Shown here: positions 18,488-30,137 of the stretch, piece by piece
How positions within the stretch are numbered: the stretch's first letter is position 1
Layout of the letters: every line of letters begins with the position of its first letter
The notes under the pieces: generated by a model
Told to the model about the DNA's origin: nothing
Seen by the model: only the letters and a program-made list of their open reading frames with translations
Database searches by the model: none
Assembly: GCA_009920775.1 (NCBI GenBank)
Contig: RFZI01000008.1
Span: forward strand, 1-33,753
DNA from: Paracoccaceae bacterium
GTDB taxonomy: Bacteria; Pseudomonadota; Alphaproteobacteria; Rhodobacterales; Rhodobacteraceae
Length of the DNA: 33,753 nucleotides
Reading direction: 5' to 3'
Program-made: the position numbers and the translations under genes

Positions 18488-18736
18488 ATGTCCAACACCC
18501 CGCACGAGCTTGGCGACGATTTCCCCGGTCAGGCCGACCTGATCCACGAGTTGAAAACCACGAACGCCCATTTCGCAAATCTTGCCGACCGCTACCACGA
18601 GATCAACCGCGCGGTGCACAGGGCCGAGACCGATGTCGAGCCGACCGACGATCTGCATATGGCCGAGCTGCGCAAGGAACGGATGGCGCTGAAAGATCAG
18701 ATCTCCGCGGCGCTTCGGGCGGCTCAGTCCACCTGA
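18488..18736 (+). CDS. DUF465 (YdcH-like) small protein
   Basis: An 82-residue, strongly helical and charged protein with the DUF465 pattern: LIHELKTTNAHFANLADRYHEINRAVHRAE, then a turn (VEPTDD) and a second helix LRKERMALKDQISAAL. Such proteins form a helical hairpin or coiled coil; the function is unknown. The ATG at 18488 has AAGG about six to ten bases upstream. It is a separate unit after betA with its own apparent promoter region (FNR-like site at 18417-18430). Its 3' end overlaps the 3' end of the convergent ScfR regulator gene by 13 bases. Confidence 0.85.
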   Translation: MSNTPHELGDDFPGQADLIHELKTTNAHFANLADRYHEINRAVHRAETDVEPTDDLHMAELRKERMALKDQISAALRAAQST

Positions 18737-20118
18737 TAGGGCAAAACGCCCCGATGATCGGGGTCGACCTTCAATCGCCGCTCGAGCGGCGGGACGGCGC
18801 GCTGGTGACAGTCGCGCCGTTCGCATATCCGGCAGGAGATGCCGATGGGCTCGAAAGCCTCGGGCGTATCGACGTCCATATGATCGGCATAGACCAGCGC
18901 CGGCGCGTGCCGCACCTCGCAGCCGAGGCCGATGGCGTAGCGGCGGGTGGGTGCATCAAACGCGCCGCCGGATTTCGTCACATCCCGCGCAAGGCAGAAA
19001 TAGCGCACGCCGTCGGGGGTCTCGGCCAGCTGGCGGAGGAACCGCCCCGGTGTTTCAAAGGCGCGATGCACGTTCCAAAGAGGGCAGGCGCCGCCATAGC
19101 GGGCGAATTGTAGGGTGGTGGCCGAGTGGCGCTTGGTGATCGTGCCGGCCGGATCGACGCGGACGAAGAAAAAGGGAATGCCCTTGGCGCCGGGGCGCTG
19201 CAGGGTCGAGAGACGGTGCGCCACCTGTTCGAGCGAGGCGCCGAAACGGTCGGCAAGGCGTTCGAGGTCGTGGCGGGTTTCCTGCGCGGCGGTGAGGAAG
19301 CGCTCATAGGGCATGAGAGCGGCGCCCGCGAAATAGTTGGCAAGGCCCACCTTGGCGATGGCGCGGGCTTCGGGGGAATGGAAACGGGCAAGGTCGAGCG
19401 TCGCTTCGAGGAGCTTGTCCTGCGTCAGGAAGGCGACCTGCAGGAGAAGCTGAAAGGTGCGGGTCTGTTCGGCCGAGCGGCGCGAGAGGGTGAGGATCTT
19501 GGCCTCGGGATCGTAGTGGCGCGTCACATCCGTATCGGCAAAGCGCACCGCCACGCCCCGCGTCCCGAGCGCGGCGATGGCGGCATCACGGATCGTCGCG
19601 GGGCTTTGCGTGGCAAAGCGTTCGGCGGTGCGGTCGACAGCGTCGATATAGTTGTCGCAATAGTGGAAGAAGTCGCGCACCTCTTCCCATGGGCTCGGTT
19701 GCAGCCGCGCATCCTCGCGCCCGAGTGCTTCGTCGAGCGAGGCGAGGCGTTCATGCGTCTGCCGGTAGGCGCGGTGGAGATCGAGGAAGGCGCGGGCGAG
19801 GGCAGGGGCGTTGGACGCCGCAAGCCGCAGATCGGCCAAGCCCGGCGGCGTGTCACCGAACAGGGGATCGGCCAGCGCCTCGCGCATATCGCCAACAAGG
19901 CGGGCCTCGTCGCCCGATTGCAGCTCGGTCACGTCAAAGCCGAACTCTTGGGCAAGGCCGAGGACCACGGCGGTCGAGACTGGGCGGTTGTTGTTTTCCA
20001 TCTGGTTGAGATAGGGCAGCGAGACCCCGAGCTTGTCGGCAAAGGCCTTTTGCGTCAGGCCGAGCCGCCCGCGCAGCTCGCGCAGCTTGACGCCCGCGTA
20101 GAGTTTCTGGATCGCCAC
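18724..20118 (-). CDS. ScfR/PccR-type XRE regulator of short-chain acyl-CoA metabolism
   Basis: A 464-residue transcription factor. Residues 6-65 are an XRE helix-turn-helix (LGLTQKAFADKLGVSLPYLN, QMENNNRP). The middle is an IrrE/ImmA-like region, and the C-terminal domain ends with the conserved Cys cluster SCRICERRDCHQRA. This architecture is that of RamB/PrpR of actinobacteria and PccR of Rhodobacter sphaeroides, which sense acyl-CoA and control glyoxylate, methylcitrate or propionyl-CoA carboxylase genes; the Cys set in mycobacterial PrpR carries an Fe-S cluster. The start is GTG (20118), giving the usual MAIQKLYAGVKLRELR. A TTTGCAAA palindrome and TTCGC dyad precede the gene, and similar sites precede pccB 1.8 kb away, so I infer control of pccB and itself. 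Confidence 0.9.
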   Translation of the reverse strand: MAIQKLYAGVKLRELRGRLGLTQKAFADKLGVSLPYLNQMENNNRPVSTAVVLGLAQEFGFDVTELQSGDEARLVGDMREALADPLFGDTPPGLADLRLAASNAPALARAFLDLHRAYRQTHERLASLDEALGREDARLQPSPWEEVRDFFHYCDNYIDAVDRTAERFATQSPATIRDAAIAALGTRGVAVRFADTDVTRHYDPEAKILTLSRRSAEQTRTFQLLLQVAFLTQDKLLEATLDLARFHSPEARAIAKVGLANYFAGAALMPYERFLTAAQETRHDLERLADRFGASLEQVAHRLSTLQRPGAKGIPFFFVRVDPAGTITKRHSATTLQFARYGGACPLWNVHRAFETPGRFLRQLAETPDGVRYFCLARDVTKSGGAFDAPTRRYAIGLGCEVRHAPALVYADHMDVDTPEAFEPIGISCRICERRDCHQRAVPPLERRLKVDPDHRGVLPYQVD

Positions 20119-20130
20119 GCCGGCCCCCGA

Positions 20131-20168
20131 TTTGCAGCTTCGCTATGCGAAGTCATAGGCTTTGCAAA
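20131..20168. promoter_or_regulatory. Probable ScfR autoregulatory operator
   Basis: The 66-base gap upstream of the ScfR gene contains TTTGCA (20131-20136), the perfect dyad CTTCGC-TAT-GCGAAG (20138-20152) and TTTGCAAA (20161-20168). TTTGCAAA is the half-site I recall for R. sphaeroides PccR. Close spacing to the start fits self-repression. Confidence 0.55.
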
Positions 20169-20184
20169 CCCGCGCTGGCAAGCC

Positions 20185-21439: not shown

Positions 21440-21799
21440 CTATTCGGCGCCAAAACGGGCAAAGATGAACCATGCGCCTGCCGCGATCAGCACAAAGCCG
21501 ACCGCATGATTCCACCGGATCGGCTCGCCAAGGTAAAGCACCGAGAAACCGGCAAAGACGGTGAGCGTAATGACCTCTTGGATGGTCTTGAGCTGCGCCG
21601 CGCTGAAATGCCCGTGGCCGATGCGGTTGGCGGGCACCTGCAGCACATACTCGAAAAAGGCGATGCCCCAACTGACGAGGATCACGACGATCAAGGGCGC
21701 GGCCTTGAACTTGAGGTGCCCGTACCAGGCGAAGGTCATGAAAAGATTGGACATCAGGAGAAGCCCGATGGTCAGGACAGGCACAGGAAGCTGCGGCAT
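21440..21799 (-). CDS. DUF486/DMT-family small membrane protein
   Basis: A 119-residue protein with four hydrophobic segments: PVLTIGLLLMSNLFMTFAWY, APLIVVILVSWGIAFFEYVL, an interrupted helix around LTVFAGFSVLYL, and WNHAVGFVLIAAGAWFIFA. The motif FMTFAWYGHLKF and the central VPANRIGHGHFSAAQLK identify DUF486, relatives of small multidrug resistance-type transporters of unknown substrate. I chose the ATG at 21799 because it gives the family start MPQLPVPVL; upstream codons are not conserved-looking. It is divergent from pccB, with 147 bases between the starts that hold the TGCAA-type operator sites, so its promoter may also respond to ScfR. Confidence 0.85.
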   Translation of the reverse strand: MPQLPVPVLTIGLLLMSNLFMTFAWYGHLKFKAAPLIVVILVSWGIAFFEYVLQVPANRIGHGHFSAAQLKTIQEVITLTVFAGFSVLYLGEPIRWNHAVGFVLIAAGAWFIFARFGAE

Positions 21800-21822: not shown

Positions 21823-21876
21823 TTACGCAATTTTGCAATTAGCGCGAACTATATTGCATTGAATTTGCAAATTTGC
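21823..21876. promoter_or_regulatory. pccB operator region: multiple ScfR/PccR-like TGCAA palindromes
   Basis: The AT-rich gap before pccB has TTTGCAAT (21832-21839), ATTGCATT (21853-21860) and a perfect 12-base palindrome AATTTGCAAATT (21862-21873) containing TTTGCAAA and running into TTTGC (21872-21876). The last two centres are 11 bases apart, about one helical turn. This resembles the TTTGCAAA-N4-TTTGCAAA element I recall for PccR-dependent pccB control in Rhodobacter sphaeroides. Confidence 0.65.
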
Positions 21877-21946
21877 TCGTTTGGCCTTTTGCCCGCCGCT
21901 CCACCTCCCTAAACTGTGGCAGCGGCAATCGAGGGCAATCTATCCG

Positions 21947-23479
21947 ATGAAAGACATCCTGCAAGAACTGGAATCGCGGCGCGAAACGGCTCGTCAGGGC
22001 GGCGGTGCCCGCCGGATCGAAGCGCAGCACGCCAAGGGCAAGCTGACCGCGCGCGAGCGGATCGAGCTTTTGCTCGACGAGGGCTCGTTCGAAGAATTCG
22101 ATATGTTTGTTGCCCATCGCTGCACCGATTTCGGGATGCAGGAAAGCCGCCCCGCCGGTGACGGCGTGGTGACGGGCTGGGGCACGGTAAACGGCCGTAT
22201 GGTCTATGTCTATTCTCAGGATTTCACCGTCTTTGGTGGATCGCTGTCGGAAACCCACGCCCAGAAGATCTGCAAGATCATGGACATGGCGCTGCAAAAC
22301 GGCGCGCCGGTGATCGGCATCAACGACTCGGGCGGCGCACGCATCCAAGAGGGCGTGGCCTCGCTTGCGGGCTATGCCGAGGTGTTCCAGCGCAACATCC
22401 TGGCCTCGGGCGTGGTGCCGCAGATTTCCGTTATCATGGGCCCCTGCGCCGGTGGCGCGGTCTATTCGCCGGCGATCACCGACTTCATCTTCATGGTGAA
22501 GGACTCAAGCTATATGTTCGTGACCGGACCCGATGTGGTGAAAACCGTGACGAACGAGATCGTCACCGCCGAGGAATTGGGCGGCGCTTCCACCCATACC
22601 CGCAAATCGTCGGTCGCCGATGGGGCCTTTGAAAACGACGTCGAGGCGCTGGCCGAGATCCGCCGCCTTGTCGATTTTCTCCCCCTCAACAACCGTGAAA
22701 AGCCGCCCGTCCGCCCCTTCTTTGACGATGTGGCGCGGGTGGAAGACAGCCTCGACACGCTGATCCCCGACAATCCCAACACGCCCTATGACATGAAAGA
22801 GCTGATCCACAAGATCGCCGACGAGGGGGATTTCTACGAGATACAGGCCGAGTATGCGAAGAACATCATCACCGGGTTCGTTCGCCTCGAAGGCTCGACC
22901 GTAGGTGTTGTCGCCAACCAGCCGATGGTTCTGGCGGGGTGCCTCGATATCGACGCCTCGCGCAAGGCCGCGCGCTTTGTCCGTTTCTGCGATGCCTTCG
23001 AGATCCCGATCCTGACCCTTGTCGATGTGCCCGGCTTCCTGCCCGGTACGAGCCAGGAATACGGCGGCGTCATCAAACACGGCGCGAAGCTCCTCTTCGC
23101 CTATGGCGAGGCGACGGTGCCCAAGGTAACCGTGATCACCCGCAAGGCCTATGGCGGCGCCTATGACGTGATGGCGTCCAAGCATCTGCGCGGCGATTTC
23201 AACTATGCCTGGCCCACCGCCGAAATCGCGGTGATGGGTGCCAAGGGCGCGGTCGAAATCCTTTATCGCAGCGAGTTGGGCGACAAAGACAAGATCGCGG
23301 CCCGGACCAAGGATTATGAGGATCGCTTCGCCAATCCTTTCGTTGCCGCCGAGAAGGGCTTTATCGACGAGGTGATCATGCCTCATTCGACCCGCCGCCG
23401 TGTCTGCCGCGCCTTTGCGAGCTTGCGGGGCAAGCAGCTCAAGAACCCGTGGAAGAAGCACGACAACATTCCGCTCTAG
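21947..23479 (+). CDS. pccB: Propionyl-CoA carboxylase beta (carboxyltransferase) subunit
   Basis: A 510-residue cytoplasmic subunit that moves the carboxyl group from biotin to propionyl-CoA, giving methylmalonyl-CoA; it assembles with PccA as an alpha6-beta6 complex. Crotonase-fold carboxyltransferase landmarks are intact: [20 protein letters not shown], the oxyanion hole [12 protein letters not shown], and in the C-terminal half [19 protein letters not shown] and [14 protein letters not shown]. The ATG at 21947 gives the family start [12 protein letters not shown] with GAGGG about 11 bases upstream. The length matches alphaproteobacterial PccB. TGCAA-type palindromes upstream suggest ScfR control. 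pccA lies 1.06 kb downstream beyond a hypothetical gene and a lipoprotein gene, an order common in Rhodobacteraceae. Confidence 0.95.
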
Positions 23480-23489
23480 GACCGCCGAA

Positions 23490-23528
23490 ATGACCAAAAC
23501 CCAAGCCAACGGTCGGGAGCACCGCTGA
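23490..23528 (+). CDS. Possible 12-residue leader ORF between pccB and the next gene
   Basis: ATG at 23490 opens MTKTQANGREHR and ends in TGA at 23526-23528, which overlaps the next gene's ATG as TGATG. CTAGGA lies about nine bases upstream but includes the pccB stop. It may serve translational coupling or be chance; there is no evidence for a functional peptide. Confidence 0.25.
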   Translation: MTKTQANGREHR

Positions 23529-23914
23529 TGGAAAAGCACCGTGGATTCCCAAGCCGGATGCCCAGCTCGGACCATCAATTCACCATTCGCCGCGCCAACA
23601 AGGAGGGCGCGACCAAGATCATCCTGCGCGAGCGGTTCCGCGATCGCCGTCCGATCGACCGCAAGGCCGACGAGCTTTTCCTCTGGGCGCTGTGGAATCA
23701 TTTCGGCGAAGAGCCCTTCGTCCGCGGCAACCTCGATGCGGGGCGGCTGTCGTGGCTTTTCGGGCGCGAGGTCGTCGCCGCCGAAGAGCCGTTTGACCCG
23801 CAAGACTATGACGCGCTCCTGAAGATCGATCTCGCCAAAGCGAAGGCCAGCTTTCCGCAGATCTTTGACGATCGCGCCGCCTCGCCCTTCGAGGGAGACG
23901 ACGATTGGGACTGA
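23528..23914 (+). CDS. Conserved hypothetical protein of the pcc locus
   Basis: A 128-residue soluble protein with no signal or membrane segment and no domain that I recognise. It is charged: an N-terminal basic part (TIRRANKEGATKIILRERFRDRR), a central hydrophobic-aromatic segment (DELFLWALWNHFGEEPFV), then an acidic C-terminus ending SPFEGDDDWD. Codon use matches its neighbours, so I take it as real. The ATG at 23528 overlaps a tiny upstream frame; an internal ATG at 23558 (MPSSDHQFTIRR) is an alternative start. It lies directly downstream of pccB and upstream of a strong terminator, so pccB and this gene probably form one transcript. A link to propionate metabolism is by position only. Confidence 0.7.
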   Translation: MEKHRGFPSRMPSSDHQFTIRRANKEGATKIILRERFRDRRPIDRKADELFLWALWNHFGEEPFVRGNLDAGRLSWLFGREVVAAEEPFDPQDYDALLKIDLAKAKASFPQIFDDRAASPFEGDDDWD

Positions 23915-24539: not shown

Positions 24540-26540
24540 ATGTTCAAGAAGATCCTGATCGCCAACCGGGGCGAAATCGCCTGCCGCGTCATCAAGACGG
24601 CCCGCAAGATGGGCATCCAGACGGTGGCGGTCTATTCCGATGCCGACCGTAATGCGCTCCATGTGTCGATGGCCGACGAAGCGATCCACATCGGCCCGCC
24701 GCCCGCGAACCAGTCCTACATCGTGATCGACAAGATCATGGCCGCGATCAAGGAAAGCGGCGCGGAGGCGGTGCATCCGGGCTATGGATTCTTGTCGGAA
24801 AACCCCAAGTTCGCCGAGGCCTTGGAAAAGGCGGGCGTCGAATTCATCGGGCCGCCAGTGAAATCCATCGAGGCGATGGGCGACAAGATCACTTCGAAAA
24901 AGATTGCTCAGGAAGCAGGCGTGAGCACGGTTCCGGGCTATATGGGCCTCATTGGCGATGCCGACGAGGCGGTGAAGATCAGCCAGGAAATCGGCTATCC
25001 GGTGATGATCAAGGCCTCTGCCGGGGGCGGCGGCAAGGGGATGCGGATCGCCTGGAACGACACCGAGGCGCGCGAGGGCTTCCAGTCATCCAAGAACGAG
25101 GCCGCCAATTCTTTTGGCGATGACCGGATCTTCATCGAGAAATTCGTCACCCAACCGCGCCACATCGAAATTCAGGTGCTCTGCGACAAGCACGGCAACG
25201 GCGTCTATCTGCACGAGCGGGAATGCTCGATCCAGCGGCGCAACCAGAAGGTCGTGGAAGAGGCCCCGTCGCCCTTCCTCGATGAAGCCACCCGCAAAGC
25301 GATGGGCGAGCAGGCCGTAGCTCTGGCCAAAGCGGTGGGCTATGCCAGCGCTGGCACGGTCGAATTCATCGTCGACGGCAACCGCAACTTCTACTTCCTC
25401 GAAATGAACACCCGCCTGCAGGTGGAACACCCCGTCACCGAGCTCATCACCGGGGTCGATCTGGTCGAGCAGATGATCCGCGTGGCCAACGGCGAGGCGC
25501 TGCCGTTCAAGCAGGAAGACCTCAAGATCAACGGTTGGGCGATCGAGAACCGCCTATACGCCGAGGATCCCTACCGCAACTTCCTGCCCTCCATCGGCCG
25601 CCTCAGCCGCTATCGCCCGCCTGTCGAGGGCGACACGGAAACGGGCGGCATCGTGCGTAACGATACCGGCGTTTATGAGGGCGGCGAGATTTCGATGTAT
25701 TACGACCCGATGATCGCCAAGCTCTGCACCTGGGGCCCGACGCGGGCGCAGGCCATCGAAGAGATGCGCGTGGCGCTCGATACCTTCGAGGTCGAGGGCA
25801 TTGGTCACAACCTGCCGTTCGTCGCCGCCGTGATGGATCACCCGCGTTTCGTTTCCGGCGCCATGACCACCGCCTTCATCGCCGAGGAATACCCCGACGG
25901 GTTCTCGGGCGTCGAGCTGCCGCGCGAGGCGCTGGTGCGCGTGGCCGCCGCCGCGGCCGCCATGCACCGTGTTACGGAAATCCGCCGCTCGCGCATCTCG
26001 GGCCGGATGAGCAACCACGAGCGCCATGTCGGCACCGATTGGGTGGTGACGCTGCAGGGGCAGGAATTCCCTGTGACCATGACCGCCGACCGCGCGGGCG
26101 CGGATGTGACCATCGAGGGCAAGACCCTGCGGATCGAAAGCGACTGGACGCCGGGCGATCCCCTCGCGCGGCTCACCGTGGGCGGCGCACTTCTGGTCCT
26201 CAAGGTCGGCAAGCGCACCCAAGGCTTCCGCCTGCGCTTCAGGGGCGCCGATCTGCAGGTCACGATCCGCACGCCGCGGCAGGCCGAGCTTGCGCGGCTC
26301 ATGCCAGAAAAGCTGCCGCCCGATACCTCCAAATTCCTCCTCTGCCCAATGCCGGGCCTCATCGTGAAGGTCAACGTGGCCGCGGGCGACGAGGTACAGG
26401 AGGGGCAGGCGCTTTGCACCGTCGAGGCGATGAAGATGGAGAACATCCTCCGCGCCGAGCGCAAGGGGATCGTCAAGAAGGTCAATGCTTCGGCGGGCGA
26501 CAGCCTTGCCGTTGACGAAGTGATCATGGAGTTCGAGTGA
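24540..26540 (+). CDS. pccA: Propionyl-CoA carboxylase alpha (biotin carboxylase/carrier) subunit
   Basis: A 666-residue subunit that carboxylates its own biotin with ATP and bicarbonate and presents it to PccB. Domains in order: biotin carboxylase (KILIANRGEIACRV start, ATP-binding KASAGGGGKGMRI near 160-175, EMNTRLQVEHPVTE near 290), the BT linker domain that contacts PccB, and the biotin carrier domain with the biotinylated Lys 632 in EAMKMEN. It is about 15 residues shorter than the Ruegeria pomeroyi protein because of a shorter loop after RYRPPVEG; other alphaproteobacterial homologues also have a short loop here, so I regard it as natural. GAAGGA lies nine bases before the ATG. Its stop overlaps the start of the next gene (TGATG). 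Confidence 0.95.
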   Translation: MFKKILIANRGEIACRVIKTARKMGIQTVAVYSDADRNALHVSMADEAIHIGPPPANQSYIVIDKIMAAIKESGAEAVHPGYGFLSENPKFAEALEKAGVEFIGPPVKSIEAMGDKITSKKIAQEAGVSTVPGYMGLIGDADEAVKISQEIGYPVMIKASAGGGGKGMRIAWNDTEAREGFQSSKNEAANSFGDDRIFIEKFVTQPRHIEIQVLCDKHGNGVYLHERECSIQRRNQKVVEEAPSPFLDEATRKAMGEQAVALAKAVGYASAGTVEFIVDGNRNFYFLEMNTRLQVEHPVTELITGVDLVEQMIRVANGEALPFKQEDLKINGWAIENRLYAEDPYRNFLPSIGRLSRYRPPVEGDTETGGIVRNDTGVYEGGEISMYYDPMIAKLCTWGPTRAQAIEEMRVALDTFEVEGIGHNLPFVAAVMDHPRFVSGAMTTAFIAEEYPDGFSGVELPREALVRVAAAAAAMHRVTEIRRSRISGRMSNHERHVGTDWVVTLQGQEFPVTMTADRAGADVTIEGKTLRIESDWTPGDPLARLTVGGALLVLKVGKRTQGFRLRFRGADLQVTIRTPRQAELARLMPEKLPPDTSKFLLCPMPGLIVKVNVAAGDEVQEGQALCTVEAMKMENILRAERKGIVKKVNASAGDSLAVDEVIMEFE

Positions 26541-28045: not shown

Positions 28046-28082
28046 ATGACCTGCGACGGAAGACTTGAGAAAGGCTCTGCAA

Positions 28083-30133
<2,051 letters not shown>

Positions 30134-30137
<4 letters not shown>

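Follow-up and report, generated by a model that had tools for sequence, protein, structure and literature searches.

The closest described system to the one analysed here is PccR-pccB of Rhodobacter (Cereibacter) sphaeroides, reportedly the work of Carter and Alber in 2015. Its PccR motif would be TTTGCAAA-X4-TTTGCAAA, located upstream of pccB with the two centres 12 bases apart. Passages of two papers treat PccR of this species as an activator that controls pccB (PMC10370305, PMC12632250), and a passage of the first one describes a pccR deletion in R. capsulatus with poorer growth on propionate (PMC10370305). Furthermore, sections of PMC6765138 indicate that the sites of MtPrpR and MtRamB contain TTTGC(A/G)AA, that C-X2-C-X4-C is the motif of iron-sulfur acyl-CoA regulators, and that PccR of R. 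sphaeroides has a tryptophan at the position of F155 of MtPrpR, a position tied to the choice of ligand. Regarding RamB of Paracoccus denitrificans, an extract of PMC10370305 states that reporter expression requires both of its boxes.

The pccB locus and its probable regulator gene

The window (the whole stretch of DNA that was analysed, 33,753 nucleotides from a Paracoccaceae bacterium) contains an ScfR-family gene, pccR, in whose neighbourhood we found pccB, pccA and mcm by means of their ORFs and domains:

18724 to 20118, minus strand: pccR, ScfR-family regulator with HTH, IrrE-like (M78) and ScfRs domains
21440 to 21799, minus strand: DUF486 (DMT_6) gene (PF04342, E 5.6e-48), which shares its intergenic region with pccB
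21947 to 23479, plus strand: pccB, propionyl-CoA carboxylase carboxyltransferase subunit (PF01039, E 3.5e-200)
24540 to 26540, plus strand: pccA, propionyl-CoA carboxylase biotin subunit (PF18140 PCC_BT and biotin carboxylase domains)
28083 to 30137, plus strand: mcm, methylmalonyl-CoA mutase (NF006944 above cut-off over the scanned 28086-30134; start taken from the ORF)

The ORF at 23528-23914 stops more than 600 bases before pccA, and owing to this gap pccA may have its own promoter. At 28076-28083, TCTGCAAA overlaps the ATG of mcm.

The domains PF09856 (E 7.4e-70), PF06114 and PF13560/PF01381 scored above the cut-off in PccR, which was the single protein with PF09856 found in its own genome (82.6% complete). 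The closest solved structures are of the MtPrpR/MtRamB type (PrpR 6cyy, E 2.6e-87). The C-X2-C-X4-C motif is present (C429, C432 and C437) together with a further conserved cysteine, C345, and W144 aligns with F155 of MtPrpR, a residue number counted from the 81-486 construct. Among 82 ScfR entries of at least 48% identity, repeat entries of some genes included, 73 have W and 9 have Y at the ligand-selecting position, whereas the 12 entries below 48% have neither. W144 and the pathway suggest that the ligand is probably propionyl-CoA. In the genome of locus L037 (G033) the pccR matches are split into pieces in different frames, and in that of L028 (G035), whose pccB array is also reduced, there are two short fragments only; a decay of pccR is possible in both.

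An earlier note on this DNA had claimed that several half-sites, including a perfect 12-base palindrome, lie between the divergent starts of DUF486 and pccB in GC-rich surroundings, the last two centres being 11 bases apart. Reading the letters confirmed these positions: the palindrome, AATTTGCAAATT, occupies 21862-21873, the array is flanked by the ATG of DUF486 at 21799 (minus strand) and the divergent ATG of pccB at 21947, and the GC content of the window is around 61-67% per kilobase. The boxes and box positions, numbered also from box B1, are the following:

21824 to 21831, plus strand: box A1, TACGCAAT, degenerate, unlike TTTGCAAA at 3 of 8 positions; B1-40
21832 to 21839, plus strand: box A2, TTTGCAAT, 1 mismatch; B1-32; included in the alignment of selected operators
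21839 to 21846, plus strand: position of the optional box A3, where the window has a TTAGC half only; B1-25
21853 to 21860, plus strand: middle box M, ATTGCATT, degenerate, 3 of 8 positions differ; centre 11 bases before that of B1
21864 to 21871, plus strand: box B1, perfect TTTGCAAA, within the 12-base palindrome
21872 to 21879, plus strand: box B2, TTTGCTCG, degenerate half-site, 3 of 8 positions differ from TTTGCAAA; B1+8

The GC centres of the five boxes A1, A2, M, B1 and B2 are at 21827.5, 21835.5, 21856.5, 21867.5 and 21875.5, with centre-to-centre steps of 8, 21, 11 and 8. Thus, the 11-base step is that between ATTGCATT and TTTGCAAA, and a further degenerate core follows 8 bases on. 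The match to the R. sphaeroides element, which had also been claimed, holds only in part: TTTGCAAA-like boxes do precede pccB, but the exact TTTGCAAA-X4-TTTGCAAA is absent and the nearest pairing in the window is ATTGCATT-X3-TTTGCAAA. In the own genome, a search for two exact TTTGCAAA boxes separated by 3-5 bases gave 0 matches.

Counted over the whole window there is no enrichment for TTTGCAAA-like sites, as 9 sites with at most one mismatch were found versus 6.27 expected and 19 of 100 shuffles reach 9. The 147-bp intergenic stretch has 2 such sites (shuffle fraction 0.014), and its count with at most two mismatches is ordinary (shuffle fraction 0.40). Actually, the densest 54-base cluster of GC-centred boxes with at most two mismatches in the window is located near 20131-20168, upstream of the regulator gene and not of pccB. 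The statistics of the window taken by itself are weak, and the case for the boxes rests on conservation.

Conservation of the array and its association with PccR

Besides the window, the set of pccB loci contained the best 80 of 594 relatives, which are 80-98% identical in PccB, more distant relatives lying outside the set. As anchor we used the last perfect box or, where there was none, the last box with at most one mismatch, located 30-200 bases upstream of pccB, and such a box was found in 68 of the 81 loci. Counting boxes with at most two mismatches, with expected values from single-base shuffling, B1-40 was occupied in 39 of the 68 anchored loci (0.12 expected; A1 of the window is too degenerate to count), B1-11 in 13 (0.10 expected; M of the window is not counted) and B1+8 in 19 (0.16 expected; B2 of the window is not counted). 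A box was found at B1-32 in 44 of the 68 loci versus 0.09 expected, and at B1-25 in 17. Therefore, a step of 11 bases is a variant that recurs, and no feature is as common as the 32-base spacing. Regarding the earlier note, its 11-base spacing recurs, but at its comparison value of 12 (B1-12) no box was found among these 68 loci. Likewise, the boxes that it had taken for the switch are real, but the array is longer: its commonest feature is the box at B1-32, which is often accompanied by another one at B1-40.

Pairs spaced 31-33 bases were present in 49 of the 81 loci with at most two mismatches per box, and in only 25 with at most one. The 31-33 spacing filter retained 46 loci, of which 36, thus a pattern-selected sample, were aligned over 62 bp; the alignment is gapped in a single row and its consensus is nnnnTTTGCAGATTTGCAATTnGC-n11-TGCnAATnnTTTGCAAATTTGCnnAAT. 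The conserved form is represented in the window by A2 (21832) and B1 (21864), 32 bases apart, with B1 shortly before the -35 of pccB.

As regards the R. sphaeroides motif, the genome G127, of 4.6 Mb and a listed completeness of 100%, has TTTGCAAA-GTCA-TTTGCAAA ahead of pccB and also a TTTGCGAT box 32 bases ahead of the final box, an arrangement that would reconcile the 4-base gap with the long array. We read the exact 4-base gap as a species variant that does not define the class of PccR operators. The spacing-12 reading was dropped because of the empty B1-12 position and the missing exact pairs of gap 3-5 in the own genome. In G174 there is an exact 4-base-gap pair whose neighbours match none of pccB, pccR, prpE, DUF486 and the nearby MFS gene.

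Downstream of B1 we found two promoter-like elements:

21887 to 21892, plus strand: inferred -35 of pccB, TTTTGC, with CTT at B1+22
21910 to 21915, plus strand: inferred -10 of pccB, TAAACT, with TANNNT at B1+46

These were counted in 45 relatives, the window being read separately. CTT was located exactly at B1+22 in 36 of them and TANNNT exactly at B1+46 in 30, and the window is exact in both. TANNNT anywhere within +43..+49 was found in 36 of the 45, versus none in the control range +28..+34. This fixed distance places the B pair just before the -35 of pccB, and a site just before the -35 is a usual position of an activator.

PccR status was assigned by genome-wide searches in 33 genomes; elsewhere a locus counted as PccR-bearing if a pccR with 45% identity or more adjoined it, partial genes included. 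The pccB box pair was present in 57 of the 64 loci with PccR versus 1 of the 17 without it, and in 90 of 3240 random 300-base stretches from the same loci, true sites included. Ignoring relatedness, the co-occurrence of box pair and PccR has a p of 1e-10. The relatedness-corrected test used 6 independent pairs, of which 3.9 on average went in the same direction and 0 in the opposite one (median p 0.125, not significant), so that after the correction the association is suggestive. Furthermore, nine genomes without sites retain a more distant ScfR (36-41% identity), which suggests that the boxes follow PccR and not ScfR regulators in general.

Eight loci depart from the rule. The seven PccR-bearing loci without the pair are L031, L092, L028, L088, L023, L029 and L079, and conversely L043 has the pair and no PccR found genome-wide. 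L079 may be accounted for by a second pccB in its genome, divergent from pccR and with boxes in between, L092 by boxes near its divergent pccR and farther from pccB, and L028 by its fragmentary pccR and reduced array, which leaves L031, L023, L029 and L088 as plain exceptions among the PccR-bearing loci. In the Rhizobiales loci L075, L078, L083, L085 and L086, unlike the Rhodobacteraceae layout, pccR is divergent and directly beside pccB, and the boxes are right at the pccR start.

Boxes at pccR, prpE and other places

Upstream of pccR the window has three boxes:

20161 to 20168, minus strand: pccR box R1, perfect TTTGCAAA, between an inferred -35 TTGCCA (20176-20181) and an inferred -10 TATGAC (20152-20157)
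20144 to 20151, minus strand: intermediate box, TTCGCATA, which is not kept in the near relative L013
20131 to 20138, minus strand: pccR box R2, GCTGCAAA, 30 bases downstream of R1

Of 42 loci, 38 (the window being one of them) have two boxes ahead of pccR, versus 8 of 2100 random stretches, which may themselves contain true sites. Their spacing, searched in the range 14-40, was 29-32 in 23 of the 38, 20-21 in 10, and other values in the remainder. By eye and with no control, the first box is often located between a -35 like CTTGAC or CTTGCC and a TA-containing -10. Since R1 lies between the inferred -35 and -10, PccR should block polymerase there, and we infer from this position that PccR represses its own gene by promoter occlusion. 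Between the pccR boxes, at 20138-20152, there is also an inverted repeat, CTTCGC-ATA-GCGAAG, which is not kept in L013.

The pattern TTTGCA-N4..34-TTTGCAAA occurs at three places of the own genome, namely pccB, pccR and prpE, versus 0 for the reversed-pattern control. The prpE gene is on contig C102 of the own genome (G000) and is partial, with 468 residues read; its best assignment was propionate--CoA ligase (E 5.7e-169, below the full-length cut-off), acetate--CoA ligase giving a lower score. Upstream of it, at around 1445-1540 of the contig (locus L123), there is an array of TTTGCA boxes that includes TTTGCAGATTTGCAGA, close to the pccB consensus. The operator profile derived from pccB recovered pccB in the own genome with E 2.9e-10 and prpE weakly (E 0.4). 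Across five genus genomes, with a first pass of up to 150 scored candidates per genome and E up to 10, it recovered pccB, prpE and one weak further place, G003:C80. Boxes are located upstream of prpE in the own genome and in four other genus genomes. Within the genus, G002 (listed as 93% complete) keeps the prpE boxes and has no pccB match and ScfR matches of only around 32-35%; its lack of pccB is either an assembly gap or a real loss.

The prpE box pair was found in 25 of 39 rows from PccR-bearing genomes (14 had none) versus 0 of 13 from genomes without PccR (Fisher 4e-5, relatedness uncorrected). The 39 rows are the own genome plus 38 of 40 sampled from 63 other PccR-bearing genomes, the second prpE of G046 being omitted. 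On the other side, 15 of 17 genomes were matched and the exclusion of L167 and L170, with a 52% PccR in the genome, left 13; several starts in this set were extrapolated and are not ATG. The second, acs-like matches L171-L174 were omitted from the rows. In 21 of the 27 prpE rows with a perfect box, the last such box is followed by a further one at a distance of 32 or 33 bases.

When the family was searched blind for exact box pairs, 76 of the 198 genomes had a match, as compared to 4 with the pattern reversed. From 30 of these 76 we took one locus each, and these loci may overlap with the 81 pccB loci: 16 adjoin pccB, pccR or prpE and 14 adjoin none of them. The spacing of 32 was at pccB in 5 of 6 cases and the spacing of 20 at pccR in 5 of 6. 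Ten proteins from 7 of the 14 remaining loci (a chemotaxis protein, a sulfotransferase, a LysR, an ArsR, a kinase, two TRAP transporter parts, an OmpA protein and two without family) showed no common target theme. In addition, G209 and G191 have 15 and 8 exact TTTGCAAA pairs with gaps of up to 30 (reversed control 0), far above most of the 198 relatives, which could reflect a wider regulon, a repeat element or base composition.

The literature covered, which included passages of PMC7083601, PMC6023979 and PMC9195938 and had the primary PccR paper and most subscription papers outside its scope, gave no link between PccR and either prpE or the pccR promoter; PMC5343134 contains none of the propionate terms.

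A probable composite operator and its alternatives

Our explanation starts from the observed box positions, their conservation, their fixed distance to the promoter-like elements and the association with PccR. We consider it very probable that the boxes are a composite operator through which the PccR encoded at 18724-20118 would activate pccB. The earlier note had assigned the boxes to the ScfR protein of the window as its pccB operator, and the comparative evidence together with the regulator domains, the iron-sulfur cysteines and the tryptophan argues for this assignment. PccR would occupy the upstream pair A1/A2 and the downstream pair B1/B2, with M or A3 joining in some lineages, and the two pairs, being 32 bases apart, would be separated by about three helical turns. 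When carrying an acyl-CoA signal, probably propionyl-CoA, PccR would recruit RNA polymerase from the B pair and thus switch on pccB, perhaps together with the downstream pccA and mcm. It would also activate prpE elsewhere in the genome, whereas on its own promoter box it would block polymerase and limit its own synthesis. The binding of PccR, the activation, the ligand, the self-repression and the co-transcription of pccA and mcm are what we infer from sequence.

The boxes might instead be operators of another ScfR-family regulator, RamB- or MccR-like, since relatives of the family use similar boxes, such as TTTGC(A/G)AA in the MtPrpR and MtRamB sites (sections of PMC6765138), and two MAG loci, L043 with the pair and L045 with boxes and no counted pair, have only ScfR homologues of 39-43% identity genome-wide. 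Nevertheless, this is unlikely, because the own genome, 82.6% complete, has one PF09856 protein, genomes with distant ScfRs only (e.g. L035, L071, L081 and L089) have no pccB box pair, and W or Y occupies the ligand-selecting position in all 82 entries of at least 48% identity and in none of the 12 below. A1 and A2 are also 25-40 bases upstream of the ATG of DUF486, as would be expected if the array served this gene, or DUF486 and pccB as a two-way switch. However, DUF486 divergently adjoins pccB in only 10 of the 81 loci, yet the box pair is present in 58, and the distance from the boxes to the promoter-like elements of pccB is fixed, which makes this role very unlikely. For its rare divergent position we rejected DUF486 as the main target; it is probably a bystander, and within this genus it could be affected as such. 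An origin of the boxes by chance, or from the composition of an AT-rich intergenic stretch, would agree with the weak window-only statistics, but it is scarcely credible given exact offsets that recur in 68 anchored loci versus 0.09-0.16 expected at each of four offsets, and given that two boxes precede pccR in 38 of 42 loci but occur in only 8 of 2100 random stretches.

The proposed composite operator develops the R. sphaeroides motif into a model that lends itself to experiment, in which A2 and B1 are predicted to be the most important boxes. It predicts prpE as a target and a negative self-control of pccR, and it would account for the variable spacing of neighbouring boxes alongside the kept 32-base spacing. 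It would also help to predict how propionate and ethylmalonyl-CoA metabolism is controlled in a large family of marine and phototrophic bacteria. Furthermore, PccR may work in both directions, with nothing but the placement of its operator deciding between them, a proposal that we regard as evenly balanced: the rigid 32-base array upstream of the -35 would activate pccB and, with a similar spacing, prpE, and the boxes on either side of the pccR promoter, with a spacing of 20-21 or 29-32 bases (around two or three turns), would repress pccR. If true, there would be a compact propionate regulon in Rhodobacteraceae, with prpE for activation, pccB and its neighbours for carboxylation, and the regulator itself. 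The control of pccB by PccR is published, whereas the long array, the prpE target and the self-repression are proposed here and their novelty is provisional.

Comparing with the known systems, the R. sphaeroides PccR-pccB is like the window in having an ScfR regulator over pccB and TTTGCAAA boxes upstream. It differs in its presumed 4-base gap, whereas in the window the nearest boxes are 11 apart, one of them degenerate, and the array is longer. MtPrpR and MtRamB of M. tuberculosis share with the window the ScfR family, the TTTGCAAA core and C-X2-C-X4-C, but MtPrpR uses a perfect and an imperfect box one base apart and serves the methylcitrate cycle, not PCC (sections of PMC6765138). RamB of P. 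denitrificans (class 2), compared by layout, has an 18-bp spacer and a glyoxylate-cycle target, unlike the window, but according to passages of PMC10370305 it is, as we propose for PccR, an ScfR activator with two near-identical boxes.
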